Source of the DNA: Ardenticatenaceae bacterium
Lineage (GTDB): Bacteria; Chloroflexota; Anaerolineae; Promineifilales; Promineifilaceae
DNA: 44,649 nt
Assembly: GCA_027054335.1 (NCBI GenBank)
Contig: JALUPA010000754.1
Location: 1-44,649 of the forward strand
Reading direction: 5' to 3'
Of this stretch, positions 6,740-28,398 are shown one piece after another. The notes under the pieces are model-generated. The model was not told the DNA's origin. It made no database searches and worked only from the letters and a program-made list of their open reading frames with translations. The stretch's first letter is position 1, and each line of letters opens with the position of its first letter. Made by a program: the position numbers and the translations under genes.

Positions 6740-8809
6740 TCACAACAACAGATGCAGTTTTTCGTAAATTTCGGGGCGTTTGACCAGAGCAGCTTCCCGG
6801 TATAGCTGGCTGAATCGGGACAGATCGAGGAGACGGAGGACGGCCGTTTCCGCCACGTCGGCCGGGAGTAGGCTGTGAAAACGGCCCATTTCCAGCCGGT
6901 TAGAGGCAAGGGAAACGCATTGTCGGGCCGCTTCCCGGCCGATTTTTTCCTCCCAGGCGGGCAGTTGGGTCAGCGGCGGCCGTACCAGCAAACAGTATTC
7001 GTTAATTGCTTCGGCGGCCAGAGCGTGATTGAGGAGGACGGCCGTCAGTAATTCCCCCCACACCGTCCCCCAAAAATGGAAGAGGTAAATGCCGTTTTCG
7101 GCCGGCAGCGCCGCCATCTGCCCCGGCTGCAAATTCAAGGAGCGAGCCACCGCCTGCGTGACGGTAAAGGGGATGGCAGCATACGTTTTCTGGAAGCGCA
7201 AAATCTCGTCCGCTTGCTGCCCCGGCGCGGGGGCCAGGCCAAAGCGGTATTTGTCCTGCCAGACCACCTTCATCAGCTTGCCGCCAAAGAGGACAACCGT
7301 GCCTTTTTTATAAACTCGCTCCGTTTGGGCAATAGTTTTACCGGTGTAGGCGTCTACGGCCGTGGCTGCCCGCACGTCTGCGCCGATGTTGGCGTAAATT
7401 TCGTGCCTGTCCAGCAACTCTTCCAGTTCCACGTCCGGCTTCCACTCCCCCAACCGCCCGGCGCGCAGATAACGGGCAAAAGTCAATTGGGCCAGAATGC
7501 GATTGATGTCGTCACTGGTCACTTCTGGGGGGGCAATGCGGCGCACGTCAGCCCGGCGGACACTGCCGGTGGGGCTTTGTTTGATCAGGCTGAAGATTTG
7601 CTGGATGAGAACAGAGGGGCGGAAAGCATATTGGGGAGATTGGAGATTGGAAATTGGAGATTGAGAATCGCCAATCTCTAATCGCCAATCTCCAGTCTCT
7701 TGCACTTCCGCTAACTGCAATAACGCCTCAAACCGCGCCCATTCGCCGGGGGATTTGGGCAGGCAGAGGACGCGGGTGTGGGCGGCGCGGCGGCTGCCCC
7801 GGCCGATGCGCTGTAAGAAGGAGGTCAGGTCAGGCGGCGCGCCGAGGAGGGCTACGTCGTCCACGCTGCCGATGTCAATGCCTAGTTCCAGGGTGGAGGT
7901 ACTGACGCAGACGGCCGTACTGGCTGCGGCAAAACGGGTTTCCACTTCCAGGCGCATTTTGGCGTCCAGATTGCTGTAGTGGACGAAAATTTCGGCGTGA
8001 TGGGGCAGATGGCGGCGCAGGTAAACGGCCGTTTCCTCCACCTCGTCCCGCGAATTACAAAAAAGCAGCGTCTTTTGCGCCGCCCGCCGCCCCAAAGCGT
8101 TGACCAGTTCGGCCAAATCATACAACGGCGCAATTTCCGCTTCAATGCGACGGCCGCCCGGCGCAGACACAATTACCCCGTCCCGCAAATACCGCCGGGC
8201 AATCCCTTCCGGGTCCGGCACGGTCGCCGAAAGGGCGATGCGCTGCATAAAACCGGCGTCCGGGTCGGCGTACTGGCGGATACGCTCGATACGAGGCAGC
8301 AGGCAGCGAATTTGGTCGCCGCGCGGCGCATTGTCAAACAGGTGAATCTCGTCCAGAACGATGGTGTGCAGCCCGGCAAAAAGGCGCGGGGCGCGGGTGA
8401 GCAGGCTGTCGGTGGATTCGGGCGTGGTGATGAGGATGGCCGGGGAACGTTCCACATCCAGGAAGGGAGCGTCCCCCGTTTTCCAGCCGAGGGCAATGCC
8501 ACTGCCGGCCAGGGGTTCGCGCAGCCGTTGGTACAGGTCGCGTACCAGGGCGCGGGTAGGGCAGATGTAGAGGATTGTGAGATTGGAGATTGGAGATTGG
8601 GTGAGGCGGGGCCAGTGGCGTTCCAGGAGGGGAGCGATGACGGCTTCGGTTTTGCCGGCGGCGGTGGCAGCGATGAGGAGGGTATCACGGCCGTTGAGGA
8701 TGAGAGGAATGGCTTGCTGCTGGATGGGGGTGAAACGGCCGTGTCGCGTAAAAAAGAGCGGCCATGTGTGGGGAATGGCGGCCTTAACCTCTTGCGGGGA
8801 GAACGTCAT
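6740..8809 (-). CDS. Lhr-type superfamily 2 helicase (BrxHI-like)
   Basis: A 689-aa DEAH-type SF2 helicase with Q-motif-like RFTPIQQQAI, Walker A ATAAGKTEA (about 48-56), motif Ia PTRALVRDL, DEIH (153-156), SAT (194-196), a second RecA domain with STSTLELGIDIG, and motif VI QRIGRGSR. A long C-terminal region follows. Layout and motifs fit Lhr-like helicases such as BrxHI of BREX type 2. I start at ATG 8809 (MTFSPQEV) rather than the upstream TTG; it overlaps the DUF433 gene by 26 bp, which suggests coupling. Two heptamer-repeat insertions are translated (residues ~70-77 and ~369-393). Likely part of the ATPase/nuclease island upstream. Confidence 0.88.
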   Translation of the reverse strand: MTFSPQEVKAAIPHTWPLFFTRHGRFTPIQQQAIPLILNGRDTLLIAATAAGKTEAVIAPLLERHWPRLTQSPISNLTILYICPTRALVRDLYQRLREPLAGSGIALGWKTGDAPFLDVERSPAILITTPESTDSLLTRAPRLFAGLHTIVLDEIHLFDNAPRGDQIRCLLPRIERIRQYADPDAGFMQRIALSATVPDPEGIARRYLRDGVIVSAPGGRRIEAEIAPLYDLAELVNALGRRAAQKTLLFCNSRDEVEETAVYLRRHLPHHAEIFVHYSNLDAKMRLEVETRFAAASTAVCVSTSTLELGIDIGSVDDVALLGAPPDLTSFLQRIGRGSRRAAHTRVLCLPKSPGEWARFEALLQLAEVQETGDWRLEIGDSQSPISNLQSPQYAFRPSVLIQQIFSLIKQSPTGSVRRADVRRIAPPEVTSDDINRILAQLTFARYLRAGRLGEWKPDVELEELLDRHEIYANIGADVRAATAVDAYTGKTIAQTERVYKKGTVVLFGGKLMKVVWQDKYRFGLAPAPGQQADEILRFQKTYAAIPFTVTQAVARSLNLQPGQMAALPAENGIYLFHFWGTVWGELLTAVLLNHALAAEAINEYCLLVRPPLTQLPAWEEKIGREAARQCVSLASNRLEMGRFHSLLPADVAETAVLRLLDLSRFSQLYREAALVKRPEIYEKLHLLL
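7631..7701. repeat. Heptamer hairpin inside helicase ORF
   Basis: Four ATTGGAG/GATTGGA-type heptamers are followed by four inverted AATCTCC/AATCGCC heptamers, all at a 7-bp period, inside the helicase frame. Translated on the minus strand it gives an insert of the type GDWRLEIGD...SPISNLQSP that breaks the motif VI-to-C-terminal linker. Reading frame is kept. Confidence 0.85.
8574..8601. repeat. Heptamer array (single arm) inside helicase ORF
   Basis: Four heptamers (GATTGTGA/GATTGGA type) without an inverted arm encode the residues TQSPISNL just before motif Ia. This is a second in-frame invasion of the same gene by the same family. Confidence 0.75.
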
Positions 8810-9122
8810 GGTATTCGGCAAAATCTTCCAGTGGCGCGTCAAAATCGTCGGCAATAAACAAGATGCTTTCTTTAGCTCCCCCCAGCCGTCTTTGCAGACG
8901 TGCTTCCGGTTGTGCTTCAGAGACAGCTACATATTCCAATACCGCGCGGATGTCGGCCAGCTCCAGTGAGGGGTATTCGCGCAGAATTTCTTCTTCAGAA
9001 ATACCTTGAGACACCATTCGCACAATTAACTCTATCGGAATGCGTGTATTCCTGATAACCGGTTTGCCGGTCATAACTCGCGGATTCATTTGAATGCGTT
9101 CTAAAATATCTTGCTTATCCAT
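8784..9122 (-). CDS. DUF433 antitoxin-like protein with Phd-type C-terminal tail
   Basis: 112 aa. Residues 1-68 are a DUF433 winged-helix/HTH domain (ILERIQMNPRVMTGKPVIRNTRIPIELI and the EEILREYPSLELADIRAVL helix), usually the antitoxin of a PIN-like DUF5615 toxin. Residues ~75-105 (RLQRRLGGAKESILFIADDF, then DAPLEDFAEY) nearly match the tail of the Phd antitoxin at 9828 (RPQRRLGGARESILFIADDF). DUF433 proteins normally end near residue 80, so this is a domain fusion. No toxin follows; the helicase start overlaps its end. ATG 9122 has only a weak AAAGAGA site. The tail may let it bind the VapC toxin encoded just upstream. Confidence 0.8.
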   Translation of the reverse strand: MDKQDILERIQMNPRVMTGKPVIRNTRIPIELIVRMVSQGISEEEILREYPSLELADIRAVLEYVAVSEAQPEARLQRRLGGAKESILFIADDFDAPLEDFAEYHDVLPARG

Positions 9123-9132
9123 AAGTTTGTCT

Positions 9133-9258
9133 CTTTACCAATCTTCATCATCTTCCATCTCGATCTCAGCAGCAACCAACTCTCGCCACAAATCAAACAG
9201 TTCAGGTTCAGCTCCGGATGTCTACAAACTATGCCGCGCATGGAGAGACGGCCGTTCC
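9133..9258 (-). pseudogene. Decayed 3' fragment of a BrxD-like ATPase gene
   Basis: A 26-bp stretch (ending at 9258) is identical to part of the ATPase gene at 10487-10512 and encodes the same NGRLSMRG. After an 11-bp length change the frame continues as ELFDLWRELVAAEIEMEDDE and stop, resembling ELFDLLYLYFDYDVAALLDE of the intact gene. I read it as the remains of a second copy of the 3' end. It has no start and is frameshifted. Confidence 0.5.
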
Positions 9259-9339
9259 CTAACTAAGTAAACATCCATGACTTTACTGAAAAAACTGCAA
9301 AGGACGCAAAGAGCGTGGAGATTTGCCAGAGAAAAATCT

Positions 9340-9372
9340 AGACAAATCCGCGCAATCCGCGGCTTTTTTCAG
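9340..9372. repeat. Dispersed AATCCGCGGCT-type repeat, second copy
   Basis: Contains TAGACAAATCCGCGCAATCC followed by GCGGCT and a T-run, closely like 1723-1757. Located between the ATPase remnant and the VapC terminator region. Part of it (GCGG...TTTTTT) could act as a weak terminator. Confidence 0.4.
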
Positions 9373-9402
9373 TAGACTCATCCATAAATAACTTCCCGTT
9401 TT

Positions 9403-9435
9403 AGTTGACAGTCACCTGAGAGGCGACTGTCAACT
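9403..9435. repeat. Inverted repeat AGTTGACAGTC, after vapC
   Basis: Arms AGTTGACAGTC and GACTGTCAACT with inner CCT/AGG pairing form a hairpin 13 bp past the vapC stop. A related element with TGACAGTCAC arms follows hicA at 33009-33073. Confidence 0.65.
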
Positions 9436-9447
9436 TGGCGCAAAAAA

Positions 9448-9831
9448 TCACCACATAGTGGGCACGTCATACGCCCGGATGTTGGCGTCAACGGTGAGCA
9501 GCGTCATCTTCTCGTATTGCGCCTGGGCAACGAGCATTCGGTCAAAGGGGTCTCGGTGCATCATGGGTAAAGTCAATACCCTTTGGCTATGTTCCTTGGC
9601 AATCGGCAGCCATTGAATAGTGTTGACGCGCATCTCTTCGTCAAATGCCTGTATCCAATTATCTGCCAGCTTTAACCGGCCGATGCTGACTTTGATACAA
9701 ATCTCCCAATAACTGGCCGCGCTTAAAAATAACGTGTTGTTTGTATCCAGAAAAAGGTCGCGGGCCGTCTGGCTTAAACCTTCGCCAAACAAACTCCAGA
9801 GAAAAACGTGCGTATCCAGCAGCAATTTCAT
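9448..9831 (-). CDS. vapC: VapC-family PIN-domain toxin
   Basis: 127 aa with the PIN ribonuclease pattern: MKLLLDTHVFLW (first Asp), the central Glu in SYWEICIK, and the C-terminal RDPFDRMLVAQAQ and LLTVDANI acidic pair. Such proteins cut RNA (often tRNA or rRNA) in an Mg2+-dependent way and are held inactive by their antitoxin. The ATG overlaps the stop of the Phd gene by 4 bp, so the two are translationally coupled. Nearly the same subfamily as the VapC at 27711. Confidence 0.92.
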   Translation of the reverse strand: MKLLLDTHVFLWSLFGEGLSQTARDLFLDTNNTLFLSAASYWEICIKVSIGRLKLADNWIQAFDEEMRVNTIQWLPIAKEHSQRVLTLPMMHRDPFDRMLVAQAQYEKMTLLTVDANIRAYDVPTMW

Positions 9832-10058
9832 GCCATGTAATCGGCAAAATCTGCCAACGGCGCGTCAAAATCATCAGCGATAAACAGAATGCTTTCCCTG
9901 GCCCCGCCCAGCCGTCTTTGGGGACGCGCTTCAGGCAAGACAACCAGTTTGACTAACGGCCGTTTACCTTTAGCAATAACCACTTCTTCTCCGGCCAATG
10001 CTTTTTGGATAAGCCGGGAAAGATGGGTCTTTGCTTCGTGAATTGTTACCTGTGTCAT
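9828..10058 (-). CDS. Phd/YefM-family antitoxin
   Basis: 76 aa. The N-terminal Phd fold (VTIHEAKTHLSRLIQKALAGEEVVIAKGKRPLVKLV) binds operator DNA. The C-terminal tail RPQRRLGGARESILFIADDF ends DAPLADFADYM, the toxin-binding segment. It directly precedes and overlaps vapC. The predicted promoter places the transcript start next to the ATG, so the mRNA may be leaderless. Its tail is shared with the DUF433 protein at 8784. Confidence 0.92.
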   Translation of the reverse strand: MTQVTIHEAKTHLSRLIQKALAGEEVVIAKGKRPLVKLVVLPEARPQRRLGGARESILFIADDFDAPLADFADYMA

Positions 10059-10065
10059 AGATATT

Positions 10066-10094
10066 ATCTTAGCTAAGTCTGTTGACTAAGGCAA
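10066..10094 (-). promoter_or_regulatory. Promoter/operator of phd-vapC
   Basis: TTGCCT and TAAGAT lie 17 bp apart on the minus strand, with the start predicted about 1 nt before the ATG at 10058. Between and over them lie a 10-bp palindrome CTTAGCTAAG and an imperfect inverted repeat TTAGTC-aaca-GACTTA, plausible antitoxin operators. Confidence 0.5.
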
Positions 10095-10121
10095 GTAAAA
10101 ATTAGAGAAAGCACCTGAACG

Positions 10122-10346
10122 TTACACCGGCGCAGCCTGATAAATTGCAGGGCGGTACTGCGGTTCAGGAATAGCAATGCCTTCCTCCCGCGCCGCTTCC
10201 AGCCAGGCGCTTTTGGCAATTTGCACTTCCTGCAACGCGGCAAAAGGCGTCTCGCCAAAGGCTGAACACCCCGGCAAATCAGGAATATCAGCAATGTATC
10301 CCTCGTCTTCTTCACTGTAAAAAATATTAATGTGGTAATCGCGCAT
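10122..10346 (-). CDS. HicB-family antitoxin-like protein, solitary
   Basis: 74 aa with the HicB partial RNase H-like fold: YHINIFYSEEDEGYIADIPDLPGCSAFGETPFAALQEV, then a helix of the type AKSAWLEAAREEG. It lacks a C-terminal DNA-binding domain and no hicA gene lies next to it. It sits between the Phd/VapC pair and the ATPase gene with 40-60 bp gaps and could be read with the ATPase operon. It may be an orphan antitoxin that neutralises a HicA elsewhere. Confidence 0.8.
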   Translation of the reverse strand: MRDYHINIFYSEEDEGYIADIPDLPGCSAFGETPFAALQEVQIAKSAWLEAAREEGIAIPEPQYRPAIYQAAPV

Positions 10347-10386
10347 CAGTCTTCCTCTTACAGTGTAACCAATTAGACTATTTTTG

Positions 10387-11781
10387 TCACCGCACCTGAT
10401 TGCGCAGTTCGTCGAGGAGGGCGGCTACGTCGTAGTCAAAGTAGAGGTAGAGGAGGTCGAACAGTTCGACAGCCAGGCGGACGACGCCGCGCATGGAGAG
10501 ACGGCCGTTCCGCAACCCCTGCGCCAACAATTCTGCCCCACCCCGCCGCACCTGGCTTTGCCGCTCGCCCGGTTCGTAATTGTAGGCGCGGGCGTGGTAT
10601 TCCAGGATGCGCTGCAAGAACTGACCCACTTCCTGCGGGTCTACGTCCGGTTCCAGGTAGAAAATCTGGTCGTCGTTCAGCCAGTCGCGCAGGGGCAGCC
10701 GGTTGTCGCTGCGGGTGACGGTGAAGAGGAAGAAGAGGGATTGCCCCTGGTCGTAGGCCATCGGGTAATGGCGGAAGCGGTGTTGGGGGAACTGGTCTTC
10801 GCGCAGTTTGTCTTGCCGGCCCCGCAGGGCGGCGTAGATGACGGCCTGGAAGAAGAGGGAGGCTTTGGGGCGTTGGTACGGCCGTAACAACGAATAACTT
10901 TCCGCCTCATCCACCAGCAGACACAGGCCGCTGTAATTGCCCAGCCGGGCCAGTGCGCTGACTCCCGTGAGCAGGTAGGCGATTTGCCGGGCATTGTGGC
11001 CGATTTTGTAGATGCTGGGGAACTTGACGCCGCGGGGCAGCCCCTTGTTCATGGATTTGACGCGACGGCCGCCCATCAACCATTTTATCCACGCCTTGCG
11101 CTGCCGGGAGGAGGCGGTGTTGGCAATCGCTTGCAGGCCAATGACCAGGGGATCGAGTTCAGTCGGGGAGAGGTCGCGCAGTTTAGGCAGGGTGGATTGG
11201 ATGGCGGCCGTTTTTTCCAGCAGCGGAGCCAGGCCCGTCTCGTCCGTATCCGGGTAACGCAAATGACGCATCGCTTCCCGGTAGATGGCAAAGGAGCGGT
11301 GCGGCGGCAGTTCCAGCAAATCCAGGCTGACGGCGGCCGTCAAAAAGTTGCGCGATAACGCTTCCTGCGCCGCCAGTTCTACCATGTGGCTCTTGCCGTA
11401 ACCGTACTCCCCCACCACGGCGCGGGCGTCGCCGCCCCACTGGTGGGCGTTGTTGAGCGCCTGGATCAAACTTTCCCGTTCCGGCCGCAGGTTCAGCGTC
11501 AATTCCACCACGTGCTGCGCCGGGGCAATCCCCAGGCGCAGCGATTCGATCAGCTGCCGGGCGTCCAGTTGGGTCTGGTTCATGGGGGGCGGCGGCTGGT
11601 AGGTGATGGCGTAGGTGGCGCGGGGTTCGGCCAACGTTTGCCCGTTGCCGGTAAATTCGGCGGCCGGCCGGCGGAAGCGCAGCCCGTTTTCAAAGCGCAC
11701 CATCCATTCTGTCCCGTTCCGGTAGACGGCGACAATTTGGCCACGGCCGTATTGGGGGTGTTCTACTTCTGTTCCGATCAT
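10387..11781 (-). CDS. BrxD-like P-loop ATPase with N-terminal Tudor-like domain
   Basis: 464 aa. Residues 1-40 (HPQYGRGQIVAVYRNGTEWM) look like the small Tudor/SH3-type domain found at the end of UvrD/PcrA helicases. The rest is a DUF2791/BREX BrxD-type AAA ATPase, with Walker A GEYGYGKSH (124-132) and Walker B CLLVDEAES near residue 300. In BREX type 2 such an ATPase works with an Lhr-like helicase, as here, although the cellular role is not settled. It is on the same strand as ATPase 2, the nuclease and the helicase. ATG 11781 follows a heptamer repeat that seems to have replaced the normal leader; no strong ribosome site is visible. Confidence 0.85.
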   Translation of the reverse strand: MIGTEVEHPQYGRGQIVAVYRNGTEWMVRFENGLRFRRPAAEFTGNGQTLAEPRATYAITYQPPPPMNQTQLDARQLIESLRLGIAPAQHVVELTLNLRPERESLIQALNNAHQWGGDARAVVGEYGYGKSHMVELAAQEALSRNFLTAAVSLDLLELPPHRSFAIYREAMRHLRYPDTDETGLAPLLEKTAAIQSTLPKLRDLSPTELDPLVIGLQAIANTASSRQRKAWIKWLMGGRRVKSMNKGLPRGVKFPSIYKIGHNARQIAYLLTGVSALARLGNYSGLCLLVDEAESYSLLRPYQRPKASLFFQAVIYAALRGRQDKLREDQFPQHRFRHYPMAYDQGQSLFFLFTVTRSDNRLPLRDWLNDDQIFYLEPDVDPQEVGQFLQRILEYHARAYNYEPGERQSQVRRGGAELLAQGLRNGRLSMRGVVRLAVELFDLLYLYFDYDVAALLDELRNQVR

Positions 11782-11816
11782 GGTTTTCAGTGTTCAGTTT
11801 TCAGTGTTCAGTCCTC
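11782..11816. repeat. Heptamer array, TTTTCAG/TGTTCAG family
   Basis: Four to five heptamers alternating TTTTCAG and TGTTCAG lie exactly between the ATPase 1 start and the stop of the 85-aa gene, overlapping that stop. Same family at 14502 and 26288. Confidence 0.8.
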
Positions 11817-12065
11817 TGGCAGCGCCGGCAGGCGTTTGAGGTCTGCCACGTATTTTTCCTCATCGTACTCCCGCTGATATTTGAGTACATTATATATTTC
11901 GGTAGCAAGAACGGCCGCTATCAATTCGCGGGCTTCCTGATGTGAATATCCGTCGCGCCGCAACCGTTTATACGTTTCTTTGGTTTCGGGCGGAGTGTTA
12001 TCGCGTAATTGGTTATCTACAGTTTCCAATAGGGTCTTCTTTAATATCGGGTCTGCTTGTTCCAT
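11808..12065 (-). CDS. Conserved small protein of unknown function
   Basis: 85 aa from ATG 12065 (MEQADPILKK). The longer track ORF starts inside a repeat and should be discarded. The protein is charged and helical (ETKETYKRLRRDGYSHQEAR, then ELIAAVLATEIYNVLK). The middle part (DGYSHQEARELIA) looks like a short helix-turn-helix-type arrangement, but I do not recognise a family. It lies directly upstream of ATPase 1 on the same strand, so it may belong to that operon. Confidence 0.6.
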   Translation of the reverse strand: MEQADPILKKTLLETVDNQLRDNTPPETKETYKRLRRDGYSHQEARELIAAVLATEIYNVLKYQREYDEEKYVADLKRLPALPED

Positions 12066-12085
12066 AACCACACCTGCTTTTTGGT

Positions 12086-12152
12086 ACGCAGATGAACGCT
12101 GATGACGCAGATAAAAAGATATAAAATCAGCGTCATCAGCGTTAATCTGCGC
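12086..12152. repeat. Inverted repeat, GCGTTAATCTGCG family
   Basis: Left arm ACGCAGATGAACGCTGATGA and right arm ATCAGCGTCATCAGCGTTAA (then TCTGCG) form a long hairpin around an AT-rich loop. Related copies lie at 30284-30357 and 41888-41957. Located between two small genes of the island. Confidence 0.8.
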
Positions 12153-12170
12153 CCACAAGTTTACATAACT

Positions 12171-12372
12171 CTACCTTTGATAAAATCTATAATAAATTTG
12201 CGCCTCGGCCATTTTTCGGAATGCGGCGCGTACGGCCAGCGTCGTCTCCAGCCGCCATTCAGCCAGCTTTTCCAGCCCGGTTTCATTTTCGGCAATGGCG
12301 TCCCAGGCGGCCGTTAACTCATTAAAAATCGCCCGCGTACCCCCGCACCATCTCCGCAATTTGTGTATTCAT
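12171..12372 (-). pseudogene. Frameshifted small gene (about 66 aa)
   Basis: From ATG 12372 the frame reads MNTQIAEMVRG and soon stops. Removing one G from a GGGGG run joins it to the open frame TRAIFNELTAAWDAIAENET...ending YYRFYQR at 12171. The restored product is a ~66-aa helical protein unlike anything I recognise. The homopolymer position means this is either a real frameshift or a sequencing/assembly error. It follows the DUF262 gene by 13 bp on the same strand. Confidence 0.55.
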
Positions 12373-12385
12373 ACAAACACGCCAA

Positions 12386-14479
12386 CTAATCTTCGTTTTC
12401 CCTCATAAAATCAAGATGCAGCAACTTTAATTTATCGCCTTCATCTCCAAGCGGCATATCCCATCGGGTTTCCATGAAACGCAAAAGTTTCAAGCCCCTT
12501 TCCTTAATTTCCTGCGCTGTCCATTGCTCGTAATGGGACACTTCCAATTCGGAAAACGATCCATCCGCATATCCGTTACGCAGCACCTTGCCATTCTTGT
12601 CTCGTTTGGTTCGCTTTTTGTCGGCAAAACAATCATTCTGCAAACTGGCATTGATTTTAGATGACAGCAACAATAAATTTCCCAAAGAACCACACAAATA
12701 CTTCCGCTGTTTTGTTGTAAATTCACCAAATCCATAACGCCAACATTGACGTTTATGTTTTTGTGGATAGATATGCTCAATAGATACTTTATCTTTCTCC
12801 CCCTTTGTAAAATCTTTCCACGTAACTTTGTGATGTTTGGCAAAACTCCTAGCCAACTCACTCTCATATTCAAAGAGAAAATAACGTAAACCAGACCAGC
12901 CGTAAAAACCGGTCCCATTTTTATTGTACTTTTGCGAAATACTATCCTGGAATGTTTCATACTTGAATTTCCCTTCTGAAAATTTCCAACTTACATCATC
13001 ATGCAACCAATTCGTAATATCTGAAACGGTATGTTTTCCCTTATACAGGTGACGAGCAGCATTGTAGTAGGTGCTGCTACCGTAATTTGAACGAGACTGA
13101 GAAACGCGGAATATCACAAAGATAAATCTCTCGATTGCTTTGAAAAGTTTTACACGCTCGTTTGATGTTACGTCACTGGTGGAAAAAGCGCTCATCACCA
13201 AAGGTCGAAAATAACCCATGCCGATACGGTTTAATCGATCCAGCCAGAGCTGATCTTCTTTTGTAAGATCAGGATTGTTTTCAGGATTGTAGCTATTATA
13301 CCAATGTCTGGCAGATTCTTTCAGGCTGAGAACATAATCATTTATATCTGATGGCGTCAGTTTAGCTTCCCAACTGTTTGCAGAGGCGGTTTCTTCATCT
13401 TCTTCATCTTCTTCATAATCTATTTCAACCTCATCCCCTACCATTTCTTCGACCTGTTTCATTGAATCTGTCTTTATCTCAACTTTTTGGCGGACATTCT
13501 TGGGTGAAAATTGTTCGTTCAACAAAAAGTTAATATAGTCTTTTCCTTTCTGGCGGGTATATTTCAAGTACATAATCCAGTGCGCACGCAGAAAATCATC
13601 ATCATCCAAAGGGCGGCGCTTGTTACGCCCCAAGTGATAATATACCTCTTTCCAGGCATCATTGATGTTGTCCCGGAGCTTTTTCCTCTCATCATCGCTC
13701 AATTCGTCGTCGGAATACAACGTTGACAGGTAAATCAAGCGGTTTTTCAACAATTCCAGGTTGGACAGCTTCTTACCCCGATTGTTCATTGTTTCAAAGG
13801 CAACAAAAACGTCAAAATCGTCGCCAATTTTATACTCGTTAAACATGAATCTTTGGGTAAGTTTTGTGAAGACAGATTCCAATGCTGACTTACCCTGCGC
13901 TTCAAAGAGGGCTTTTACATTTTCCGTAAAAAACTTTTTAGCATTTTCTAAATTAAGCGTATAAAATGTTTCTTCTATGACCCCTTCATTAGACTCATTA
14001 AAGATTCTGTACCGTAAAAATTTGAAGCCAGGATTATCTATTTCGTAACCGAATTTGTAGGTCTTGATAATTTTTTTCGGTGGTTTCTCGATAAACAGAT
14101 AATCTTCAACAATAGAAGTAAGCGGGCGAAGTCCTAAATATTCACGGTCTTCCTCATTTGGCAATTGTCTAACAAATTCAACCAATACTTGCAGAAGAAT
14201 AACGGCCGTTGTCAATCGCTGTTGCCCATCTACCACAAAAAACGGCACGTATTGCCAGCTTTCCATCAACCATCGCTCATCATGCCAATGTTTCCAAACA
14301 TCCCTTTCTACTTTTTTCAGAGACAGCACGCCAGTATAATGGGAGCGATTTTCTTCAAGATCAATCAAATCTTCCCAAAACTCTTTTAACTGCTGTTCGC
14401 CCCAGGCATAACCACGCTGATAATCAGGGATCCGAAGCAGCTTGTTACTGAAAACGTTGTGTAACGATTGTAATTCCAT
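12386..14479 (-). CDS. GmrSD-type nuclease, DUF262-DUF1524 fusion
   Basis: 697 aa from ATG 14479, preceded by GGGAGAG. The N-terminal DUF262 (ParB/GmrS-like) part carries IPDYQRGYAWG and FFVVDGQQRLTT, motifs linked to NTP binding and hydrolysis. The C-terminal DUF1524 part carries an HNH-like SIEHIYPQKH and the LGNLLLL...N segment. This is the single-chain GmrSD architecture, modification-dependent restriction enzymes that attack glucosylated or otherwise modified phage DNA; the BrxU protein found with BREX is of this kind. A very acidic linker (EEDEEDEE) lies mid-protein. It is more AT-rich than neighbours and has only one ACGGCCGT, suggesting later entry between the two ATPase genes. Confidence 0.9.
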   Translation of the reverse strand: MELQSLHNVFSNKLLRIPDYQRGYAWGEQQLKEFWEDLIDLEENRSHYTGVLSLKKVERDVWKHWHDERWLMESWQYVPFFVVDGQQRLTTAVILLQVLVEFVRQLPNEEDREYLGLRPLTSIVEDYLFIEKPPKKIIKTYKFGYEIDNPGFKFLRYRIFNESNEGVIEETFYTLNLENAKKFFTENVKALFEAQGKSALESVFTKLTQRFMFNEYKIGDDFDVFVAFETMNNRGKKLSNLELLKNRLIYLSTLYSDDELSDDERKKLRDNINDAWKEVYYHLGRNKRRPLDDDDFLRAHWIMYLKYTRQKGKDYINFLLNEQFSPKNVRQKVEIKTDSMKQVEEMVGDEVEIDYEEDEEDEETASANSWEAKLTPSDINDYVLSLKESARHWYNSYNPENNPDLTKEDQLWLDRLNRIGMGYFRPLVMSAFSTSDVTSNERVKLFKAIERFIFVIFRVSQSRSNYGSSTYYNAARHLYKGKHTVSDITNWLHDDVSWKFSEGKFKYETFQDSISQKYNKNGTGFYGWSGLRYFLFEYESELARSFAKHHKVTWKDFTKGEKDKVSIEHIYPQKHKRQCWRYGFGEFTTKQRKYLCGSLGNLLLLSSKINASLQNDCFADKKRTKRDKNGKVLRNGYADGSFSELEVSHYEQWTAQEIKERGLKLLRFMETRWDMPLGDEGDKLKLLHLDFMRENED

Positions 14480-14501
14480 TCTTGCTCTCCCATTCCCAGG
14501 C

Positions 14502-14533
14502 GCAACTGAACACTGCACACTGAAAACTGCATA
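14502..14533. repeat. Heptamer array, AACTGAA/CACTGCA family
   Basis: Heptamers AACTGAA, CACTGCA, CACTGAA and AACTGCA fill the gap between the ATPase 2 stop and the DUF262 start; they are the inverted form of the TTTTCAG/TGTTCAG units at 11782. Confidence 0.75.
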
Positions 14534-15817
14534 CTAATAAGGCGGCGTTTCCCCACCAGAAAGTTCGTCAATCTGGCCGCGCAGGATATGGTTGGCTTCG
14601 GCTTCGGTGATGGTGTGTTCCCCTTCGTAATGCTGGCGGGCCAGCTCGGTAACGAAGGATTTGACGAACAGGCGGCGGTGGCTCACGTCCAGGAAAACGT
14701 CGCGGGCCACGTTGGCCAGGATGGCAGCGTTAGCCCGCTGGACGGCGTGATCCAGTTGCGTGTCAAAGGCAATTTCGTAAATGGGGATCAGCTTCTCGCC
14801 AATCGCCAGCATCAGGTCGTCCTCGTCCAGGTCGAGATGTTCCAGGCTGATGATGGGGCTGAAATGGTTGACGCGGCTGAACCGGCCGGGGGCGCGGACG
14901 CGCTGCTGCAAGGCGGGATATTTGGGCACAACGTCGTTGATGAACTGAGGCGGCACGGCGTAGACGAACATGGCGCCGGGCAAATCTTCGCGGGTGCGGT
15001 CAATCACTTCCCGCAGGGTGTCCGTCGCCAGCTTTTCTGCCTTGCCGCCGACGGAAGCCATGCGGTCTACCTCGTCGAAGAGGAGGATGAGGCCGGAGTA
15101 GCTGAGGGCGCGGATTACCTGGCAGAGGGAGCGGAGCATCCGAAAGGCGTTGGTGCGGAAGATTTTGCCGGTGACGCCTACTTCGCGCAGGATTTTGGTG
15201 TCGTCCGGGCTGGTCTTTTCCCCCATCAGCCAGCGGGTGAGGGAATCCAGCCGCTCTTCCTGCTGGCGGATGAGGGCGTCGAAGTAGGCGAGTACGGCCG
15301 TCTGGTAAGCGGGACTATCTACGGGTGAAGCCTCCAGCGTATCCACCAACGCGCGGTATAACGGGTTGTTCAACGTCTCCAGGCTCAGGGGGCCACCGGT
15401 GATGCGTTCCAGCGTCCCCTCCAGGAAGCGAGTCAGGCCGCTCTCATCGCTGATCCCTTCCGGCTCGTGCCAGATGATATTGTTGGCTACGGCCGCGTAG
15501 ACCAGCTTCTGGTCGTTGTACGGCGTTTCCGTAGGGCTGAGGTCTACCTTGACCACGGCAAAATTCCGCTCCCAGGCGACGTCCCGCAGGCAGTAGAGGA
15601 AGTGGGATTTACCCGCACCGTAATCGCCTACCACCATTTTGTAGGCCGCGCCCCCTTCCTGCAGATAGGAAGAAAGGTAAAATTCGTCCAGGGCGTCCAG
15701 CAGGGATTGGTTGCCCACGTTAAAATATTGCAAACCGCGCGTCGGCGGCGTGCCGAAGCTGCCTAAAACTTCAATGATGTTGCGGGCGAGCGGGCGGGAG
15801 AGAGTAGATTCGTTCAT
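14534..15817 (-). CDS. BrxD-like P-loop ATPase, second copy
   Basis: 427 aa of the DUF2791/BREX BrxD group. Walker A is GDYGAGKSH (64-72), Walker B is LILLFDEVDRM near residue 246, and the sensor-like region is FVYAVPPQF. An alpha-helical C-terminal lid follows. Unlike ATPase 1 it has no Tudor-like N-terminus; the two are distant paralogues and could form a hetero-oligomer. The ATG at 15817 lacks a clear ribosome site because a 44-bp palindrome separates it from the upstream gene. It follows the coiled-coil gene by 51 bp and is probably co-transcribed. Confidence 0.85.
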   Translation of the reverse strand: MNESTLSRPLARNIIEVLGSFGTPPTRGLQYFNVGNQSLLDALDEFYLSSYLQEGGAAYKMVVGDYGAGKSHFLYCLRDVAWERNFAVVKVDLSPTETPYNDQKLVYAAVANNIIWHEPEGISDESGLTRFLEGTLERITGGPLSLETLNNPLYRALVDTLEASPVDSPAYQTAVLAYFDALIRQQEERLDSLTRWLMGEKTSPDDTKILREVGVTGKIFRTNAFRMLRSLCQVIRALSYSGLILLFDEVDRMASVGGKAEKLATDTLREVIDRTREDLPGAMFVYAVPPQFINDVVPKYPALQQRVRAPGRFSRVNHFSPIISLEHLDLDEDDLMLAIGEKLIPIYEIAFDTQLDHAVQRANAAILANVARDVFLDVSHRRLFVKSFVTELARQHYEGEHTITEAEANHILRGQIDELSGGETPPY

Positions 15818-27710: not shown

Positions 27711-28091
27711 TCACGCTTCCAGAATTTTCACCGGATACGCCTTCAGTCTCAAGTCTCCAGTCACCAAAGTTAAACGTTCCACCTGCGCCTGGGCAATCAG
27801 CATTCTATCAAACGGGTCTTTATGGTAATGCGGCAAATTCTCAACAGCTAATGCGTGTTCAGTGGAAATATCAAGCGATGTAAAACGGTGTAATCTTAAC
27901 TCCTCCAGGTAATCACCTTGAGGAGCCTTTAACTTGCCAATCGCTTTCTTTATAGAAATCTCCCAGGCTGTCGCTGCACTGACAAAAACCACGTTGCTTC
28001 CCGCCACAATCGCGGCGCGAGCTTTTGCAGAAAGTTTGGGATTATCATCAACAGCCCACAAAAAAACGTGTGTGTCAAGCAGCAAATTCAT
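27711..28091 (-). CDS. vapC: VapC-family PIN-domain toxin, second copy
   Basis: 126 aa from ATG 28091; the track extension lies inside the antitoxin gene. MNLLLDTHVFLWAV, AWEISIKKAIGKLK, KDPFDRMLIAQAQ and LVTGDLRLKAY carry the four acidic PIN positions. It overlaps the antitoxin gene by 17 bp. Predicted Mg-dependent RNase. Confidence 0.93.
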   Translation of the reverse strand: MNLLLDTHVFLWAVDDNPKLSAKARAAIVAGSNVVFVSAATAWEISIKKAIGKLKAPQGDYLEELRLHRFTSLDISTEHALAVENLPHYHKDPFDRMLIAQAQVERLTLVTGDLRLKAYPVKILEA

Positions 28092-28338
28092 TATCTTCAA
28101 TTTCTCCCGTAAATAACTGCAAAATATCATCAGGCAGATCGTCAAAATCATCTGCCATCCATATTTTCCCTTTCCAGTTACCCGCCCCTAACTTGCGCGG
28201 CGTTTCATCCAGGTCATACGGCACAATTTTGACGACAGGTTTGCCGGCTTTGCCGATAACAACTTCTTCGCCCTGTAACACCCGCTCAATTAATCGGGAC
28301 AAACTGGCTTTGGCATCAGAAATATTCGTGATTTGCAT
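28075..28338 (-). CDS. Phd/YefM-family antitoxin, second copy
   Basis: 87 aa from ATG 28338. MQITNISDAKASLSRLIERV is the Phd DNA-binding start and PRKLGAGNWKGKIWMADDFD the toxin-binding tail. The longer track N-terminus lies over the promoter and is rejected. Its tail has the same layout (Arg/Lys-Leu-Gly...ADDFD) as the first Phd and the DUF433 fusion but is clearly diverged. Confidence 0.93.
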   Translation of the reverse strand: MQITNISDAKASLSRLIERVLQGEEVVIGKAGKPVVKIVPYDLDETPRKLGAGNWKGKIWMADDFDDLPDDILQLFTGEIEDNEFAA

Positions 28339-28369
28339 TTGATTACCGCCTCTCTTACTGTTTAACAAA

Positions 28370-28398
28370 ATTATAGTCCGATCTGGTCTGGTTTGCAA
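28370..28398 (-). promoter_or_regulatory. Promoter of the second phd-vapC operon
   Basis: Minus-strand TTGCAA (28398-28393), 17-bp spacer, perfect TATAAT (28375-28370). The start is about 25 nt before the antitoxin ATG. Confidence 0.75.

Follow-up and report, generated by a model that had tools for sequence, protein, structure and literature searches.

A 44,649-nt stretch from an Ardenticatenaceae bacterium of the Chloroflexota (assembly GCA_027054335.1, contig JALUPA010000754.1; the whole stretch is called the window below) carries a small gene whose product joins a DUF433 DNA-binding domain to the C-terminal tail of a Phd-type antitoxin. An ordinary phd-vapC toxin-antitoxin (TA) pair with the same tail lies close by. 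We interpret this gene, hereafter the chimera, as a recombinant orphan type II antitoxin that has been retargeted to the adjacent VapC, a reading to which we assign a probability of about 0.6 and in which the contact with VapC is predicted from the tail. An earlier sequence-only reading of this DNA had called the two antitoxin genes, and both were recovered at the extents given there, on the minus strand (Table 1).

One tail on two unrelated antitoxins

The chimera protein belongs to the DUF433 (COG2442) antitoxins, with a PF04255 score of 80.1 bits against a curated cut-off of 23.6. In an alignment of DUF433 proteins, every residue that is invariant in the family is present in the chimera, and the reading frame is open. 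The AlphaFold model has pLDDT values of 92-98 across residues 21-70; its top Foldseek match is the DUF433 structure 2ga1 (E=8.8e-5, probability 1.00), and Rv2018 is also found among the solved relatives. The product would most likely bind its DNA target through the DUF433 winged helix. Beyond the folded domain, the modelled chain is a flexible tail in which a short helix forms around PLxDFxxY, and the same arrangement is seen in the Phd model. PF02604, the N-terminal domain of Phd/YefM proteins, was not matched in the chimera protein. The whole protein scores below the cut-offs of both the NF050009 VapB model (32.7 bits versus 60) and DUF2281 (PF10047; 26.2 versus 26.5), and only its tail region matches them.

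The N-terminal parts of the chimera and the Phd protein are unrelated (PF04255 versus PF02604), the solved relatives of the Phd model being the N-terminal domains of phage P1 Phd and VapB46. The C-terminal block of approximately 33 residues (~99 nt), in contrast, is identical at 28 of 32 residues (88%), in agreement with the earlier claim of different DNA-binding folds with near-identical C-termini. The likeness had also been claimed at the DNA level, and it was found there: a local alignment pairs 8807-8909 with 9834-9935 (about 100 nt, some 80% of them identical), and the identity drops abruptly just beyond both edges of the block. The alignment score was 109, whereas none of 1000 shuffles exceeded 29, which excludes a chance resemblance of the tails. 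Of 96 aligned nucleotides, 79 are identical, and 12 of the 17 differences fall at third codon positions (dN 0.056, dS 1.12; P=5e-5 versus no constraint). All invariant tail residues are present in the DUF433 copy, and at the four positions where it differs, the same residues occur in functional-looking Phd tails. Judged from these substitutions, the tail pair as a whole has clearly been under constraint since the split, although the assignment of this constraint to the DUF433 branch is not certain.

Many genera of the family have Phd proteins that end in this tail and whose genes overlap a vapC; the full-length orthologues are 57-80% identical. The closest DUF433 relatives (up to 67-74% amino acid identity among the matches listed) have no tail; the usual end of a DUF433 relative is about 15 residues past the domain, and a DUF5615 toxin gene comes next in most of the loci read. 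Because the tail recurs on the Phd proteins of the family and the DUF433 relatives are without it, the sequences show a move of the tail from Phd to DUF433. The tail DNA of the chimera is 82% identical to that of the local Phd gene, versus 58-69% to those of close Phd orthologues in the family, which points to the present locus or lineage, or to a close paralogue, as the source. On the same figures, the Phd of another family member was set aside as the donor. Because the DNA homology between the chimera and a DUF433 relative (G733) fades around codons 60-70, the breakpoint is placed just before the residues PEAR. Acquisition of the tail by recombination, one of the origins considered in the sequence-only reading, is well supported by a tail that is native to Phd, missing from other DUF433 proteins and nearest to the local Phd tail.

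Table 1. Features of the chimera, the phd-vapC pair and the genes around them (positions in the window)
Feature	Position	Strand	Evidence
DUF433-tail antitoxin gene (the chimera), 112 aa	8784..9122	-	PF04255 E=1e-22, residues 10-64; DUF2281/VapB C-terminal match, residues 71-104
DUF433 winged-helix DNA-binding domain	8931..9095	-	PF04255; AlphaFold model; all family-invariant residues present
Acquired toxin-binding tail of the DUF433 gene, PEARLQRRLGGAKESILFIADDFDAPLEDFAEY	8811..8909	-	DNA alignment to the Phd tail; tail-profile match of 73 bits
Homologous native tail of the Phd gene, PEARPQRRLGGARESILFIADDFDAPLADFADY	9837..9935	-	DNA alignment; tail also present on Phd orthologues of the family
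Phd-type antitoxin of 76 aa; cognate partner of VapC, donor type of the tail	9828..10058	-	PF02604 E=1.1e-7
VapC PIN-domain toxin, 127 aa	9448..9831	-	PF01850 E=6.7e-15
HicB-like antitoxin without HicA, same TA cluster	10122..10346	-	PF15919 E=6.5e-7
BrxHI/SngC-like DEAD/DEAH helicase	6740..8809	-	PADLOC BrxHI E=4e-70, SngC E=8e-65
BrxD/SngB-like ATPase, bordering the TA cluster upstream	10387..11781	-	PF10923 E=1.7e-23; PADLOC BrxD E=4e-21

Distribution of the tail and of the fusion

Two known profiles, Pfam DUF2281 and the NCBIfam VapB model, match the tail with their C-terminal portions. A profile made from ten such tails was searched against 396 genomes of the class and gave about 120 matches across 79 of them. 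Among 109 tail-bearing open reading frames (ORFs) scanned for domains, 58 matched Phd and 86 matched DUF2281 at least via the tail; PF04255 was found in one, the chimera itself. A PIN-like ORF follows 92 of the 111 tail-bearing ORFs examined. As read from these matches, VapC antitoxins have in this tail an established module for toxin binding, which is carried on several DNA-binding types. That two unrelated antitoxins share one tail, as the sequence-only reading put it, is less remarkable than the phrase suggests, given that several N-terminal types carry the tail in the class.

Some of these tail-bearers merit mention in their own right. At loci L142, L144, L154, L177, L193, L196 and L201, the tail stands on ribbon-helix-helix- or MraZ/AbrB-like N-termini with weak or no Pfam assignment, and these proteins are candidates for further antitoxin recombinants. 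A Phd-type protein at L128:178-531 has two tandem VapC-binding tails in one chain (GSAKGLIRMADDFDAPLEDF and GYAKQYLIHMADDFDEPLEDFAEYM). The Phd at G000:C339:426-835, whose tail is related, has only a partial VapC match (residues 75-127) behind it, and the pair is possibly decayed or truncated.

A whole-protein search of about 740 Chloroflexota genomes revealed no tail in other DUF433 proteins among the matches listed (the best ~150 per search), a result that is telling because a chimera would score highest. Phyla beyond the Chloroflexota were covered thinly, via plasmids, phages and a near-exact contig scan. DUF433 matches were present in the plasmid and phage collections, and none extended over the tail; a tail-only search of the plasmids gave no match, the 34-residue query being weak there, and the viral contigs gave none. 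The near-exact scan returned one DUF433 relative, from an Anaerolineales genome, without the tail. A tail widespread in ordinary DUF433 proteins, which the sequence-only reading had named as the observation that would speak against it, was therefore not seen in the genomes searched, and the tail as an ordinary DUF433 feature is rejected on the tail-less relatives and the single PF04255 match among the tail-bearers. Within the limits of these searches, the combination of DUF433 with a Phd/VapB tail is new, whereas the swapping of parts between antitoxins was already known.

Toxin partner and possible role of the chimera

In the genome of the chimera, whose place in the Chloroflexota is in keeping with an abundance of DUF433 (PMC2701414), a DUF5615 match lies close downstream of 11 of the 14 DUF433 genes, and the chimera is not among the 11. 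It is followed by the DEAD/DEAH helicase gene, not by a DUF5615/PIN toxin gene. No DUF5615 match was found anywhere on the contig, and a six-frame reading of the intergenic region 9123-9447 recognised no remnant of DUF5615 or of a second VapC. The earlier statement that the DUF433 form lacks a toxin of its own was thus upheld. The neighbouring pair (9448-10058) has the marks of a Phd-VapC system: it combines PF02604 with PF01850, the vapC start overlaps the phd stop by 4 nt, and the acidic residues D6, E43, D94 and D115 of VapC are present in the translation. Judged by its sequence, the toxin is intact. Because all invariant tail positions are conserved in the chimera and a PIN toxin gene usually comes after tails of this kind, an action of the chimera on this VapC is plausible. 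A second Phd-PIN pair occurs in the window at 27711-28398; the PIN protein shares 49% identity with the VapC of 9448-9831, and PF02604 is matched by the Phd (28075-28398).

In the explanation that we favour, the starting point would be an ordinary DUF433 antitoxin from a DUF433-DUF5615 pair, whose gene would have lost the last ~15 residues together with the toxin gene and gained, in frame, the VapC-binding tail from the Phd of the adjacent phd-vapC pair or from a close paralogue of it. The product would still bind DNA through DUF433, while its tail would be able to bind and neutralise VapC, which would then have two antitoxins. VapC would also influence the promoter bound by the chimera, and this promoter would drive the overlapping BrxHI-like helicase gene as well. 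A stronger version, in which the recombination has brought a BrxHI-like defence helicase under the influence of VapC and the chimera is a VapC-sensing transcription factor whose operon includes that helicase, seems to us distinctly improbable; if true, shifts in the VapC:Phd balance would change helicase expression.

Several points weigh against retargeting to VapC. The binding of VapC is deduced from the conservation of the tail and not from direct observation, and this conservation may partly date from the time that the tail spent inside a Phd. Drift on the DUF433 copy alone is compatible with the raw count of differences (P=0.18) and is disfavoured (P about 0.007) only if no more than two changes fell on the DUF433 branch. 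A dS of about 1.1 suggests an old split, and the donor may be a diverged paralogue. In addition, the chimera occurs in one genome only, with no cross-species proof that the fusion has been maintained.

The single occurrence and the one-branch drift would also suit a non-functional or decaying relic, that is, an accidental tail fusion whose toxin was deleted and which has no selected role, being kept only through its overlap with the helicase start; a toxin-less antitoxin would have company there, the TA cluster including a HicB without HicA. We hold this to be unlikely, considering that the frame is open, that all invariant residues of both DUF433 and the tail are intact, and that the tails differ mainly at synonymous sites over this dS. 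An origin of the tail from another phd-vapC pair, once located directly before the helicase and since lost, deserves somewhat more credence, although it too is on the unlikely side. DUF433 would later have replaced the DNA-binding part of that Phd, and the old vapC would have disappeared. The order of the steps is all that sets this course apart from the favoured explanation. It would account for a tail that ends right at the start of the helicase, the place expected for the start of a vapC, and the dS between the tails fits an old paralogue; however, no vapC remnant was found, and none of the relatives has a phd-vapC pair directly before the helicase at the ~20 sites read.

The fusion could also owe its retention mainly to a role in controlling transcription of the helicase, and through it of the BrxD/BrxHI-like defence-type cluster; VapC would then be a co-factor modulating how DUF433 binds upstream of 9122, and the tail no spare antidote. 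The helicase ATG (8809), a start that agrees with the orthologues, sits within the 3' end of the chimera (26-nt overlap), and because it falls inside the last codons, translation of the helicase is probably coupled to that of the chimera. There is also a precedent in VapB10 of Synechocystis, a characterised DUF433 protein: it neutralises the PIN toxin of its pair, and it activates its own promoter, to which it binds, the DNA binding being abolished by VapC10 (PMC3834315). Nevertheless, this role is doubtful: no operator or promoter upstream of 9122 exceeded the shuffle expectation, the sole strong inverted repeat (9403-9435) lies just beyond the vapC stop, and relatives possess the helicase without any such preceding gene. 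As for an error of assembly, the draft consists of 761 contigs with an estimated contamination of 5.5%, but two tails with 17 differences over 96 nucleotides, most of them at third codon positions, are not one misassembled sequence; this possibility, like the chance resemblance dismissed by the shuffles, is negligible.

Genomic setting and relation to known systems

HicB without HicA, the phd-vapC pair and the chimera occupy the gap between the BrxD/SngB-like ATPase and helicase genes. These two genes are adjacent in relatives L070, L075, L081, L083 and L086, and in L074 and L069 they are separated by hicA-hicB or a nucleotidyltransferase-like gene; L074 retains hicA-hicB at the matching site, its HicB being identical at 62 of 74 residues. 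The region 6740-15817 contains two BrxD/SngB-like ATPases (10387-11781 and 14534-15817), the BrxHI/SngC-like helicase and a GmrSD-type protein (12386-14518), and we regard it as a BREX- or Shango-like cluster whose composition is unusual and into which small TA genes are inserted between ATPase and helicase.

In the textbook layout of antitoxins, the N-terminal part binds DNA and the C-terminal part binds the toxin (PMC4803016), and the network of toxin-antitoxin pairings is modular (PMC2701414). The chimera shares its N-terminal domain, fold and invariant residues with the DUF433/COG2442 antitoxins (PIN-COG2442 pairs, VapB10 of Synechocystis, Rv2018 VapB45 and 2ga1), but it has neither their native C-terminus nor a DUF5615/PIN gene and bears a Phd/VapB-type tail instead; the reported COG2442 fusions involve extra winged helix-turn-helix domains, not the present tail (PMC2701414). 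With the Phd-VapC type II pairs, of which the neighbouring genes are an ordinary member, it has the C-terminal 33 residues in common, but not the Phd domain or a vapC directly downstream. Its resemblance to DUF2281 and NF050009 VapB proteins is likewise confined to the C-terminal part. Stand-alone antitoxins, including the stand-alone COG2442 genes of Synechocystis (PMC4963859), also comprise DUF433 proteins without an adjacent toxin, whereas this orphan bears the tail of the antitoxin of another system. The Panacea hyperpromiscuous antitoxin networks (PMC8832971, PMC10440598) similarly involve modular antitoxins with exchangeable partners, except that one antitoxin domain there serves many toxins, and here one toxin-binding tail sits on another DNA-binding domain at one locus.

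The modularity of type II antitoxins has mostly been inferred from families that pair one toxin with different DNA-binding domains. In this window the donor module and the recombinant lie 0.7 kb apart and their DNA homology is still visible, so that the breakpoints can be placed; two small genes and a single toxin would suffice to test the prediction that specificity follows the tail. The case also shows the tail behind the DUF2281 and VapB matches to be a mobile module, so that annotation by this tail only mislabels proteins. The chimera represents a clean, lineage-specific case of the known modularity of antitoxins.

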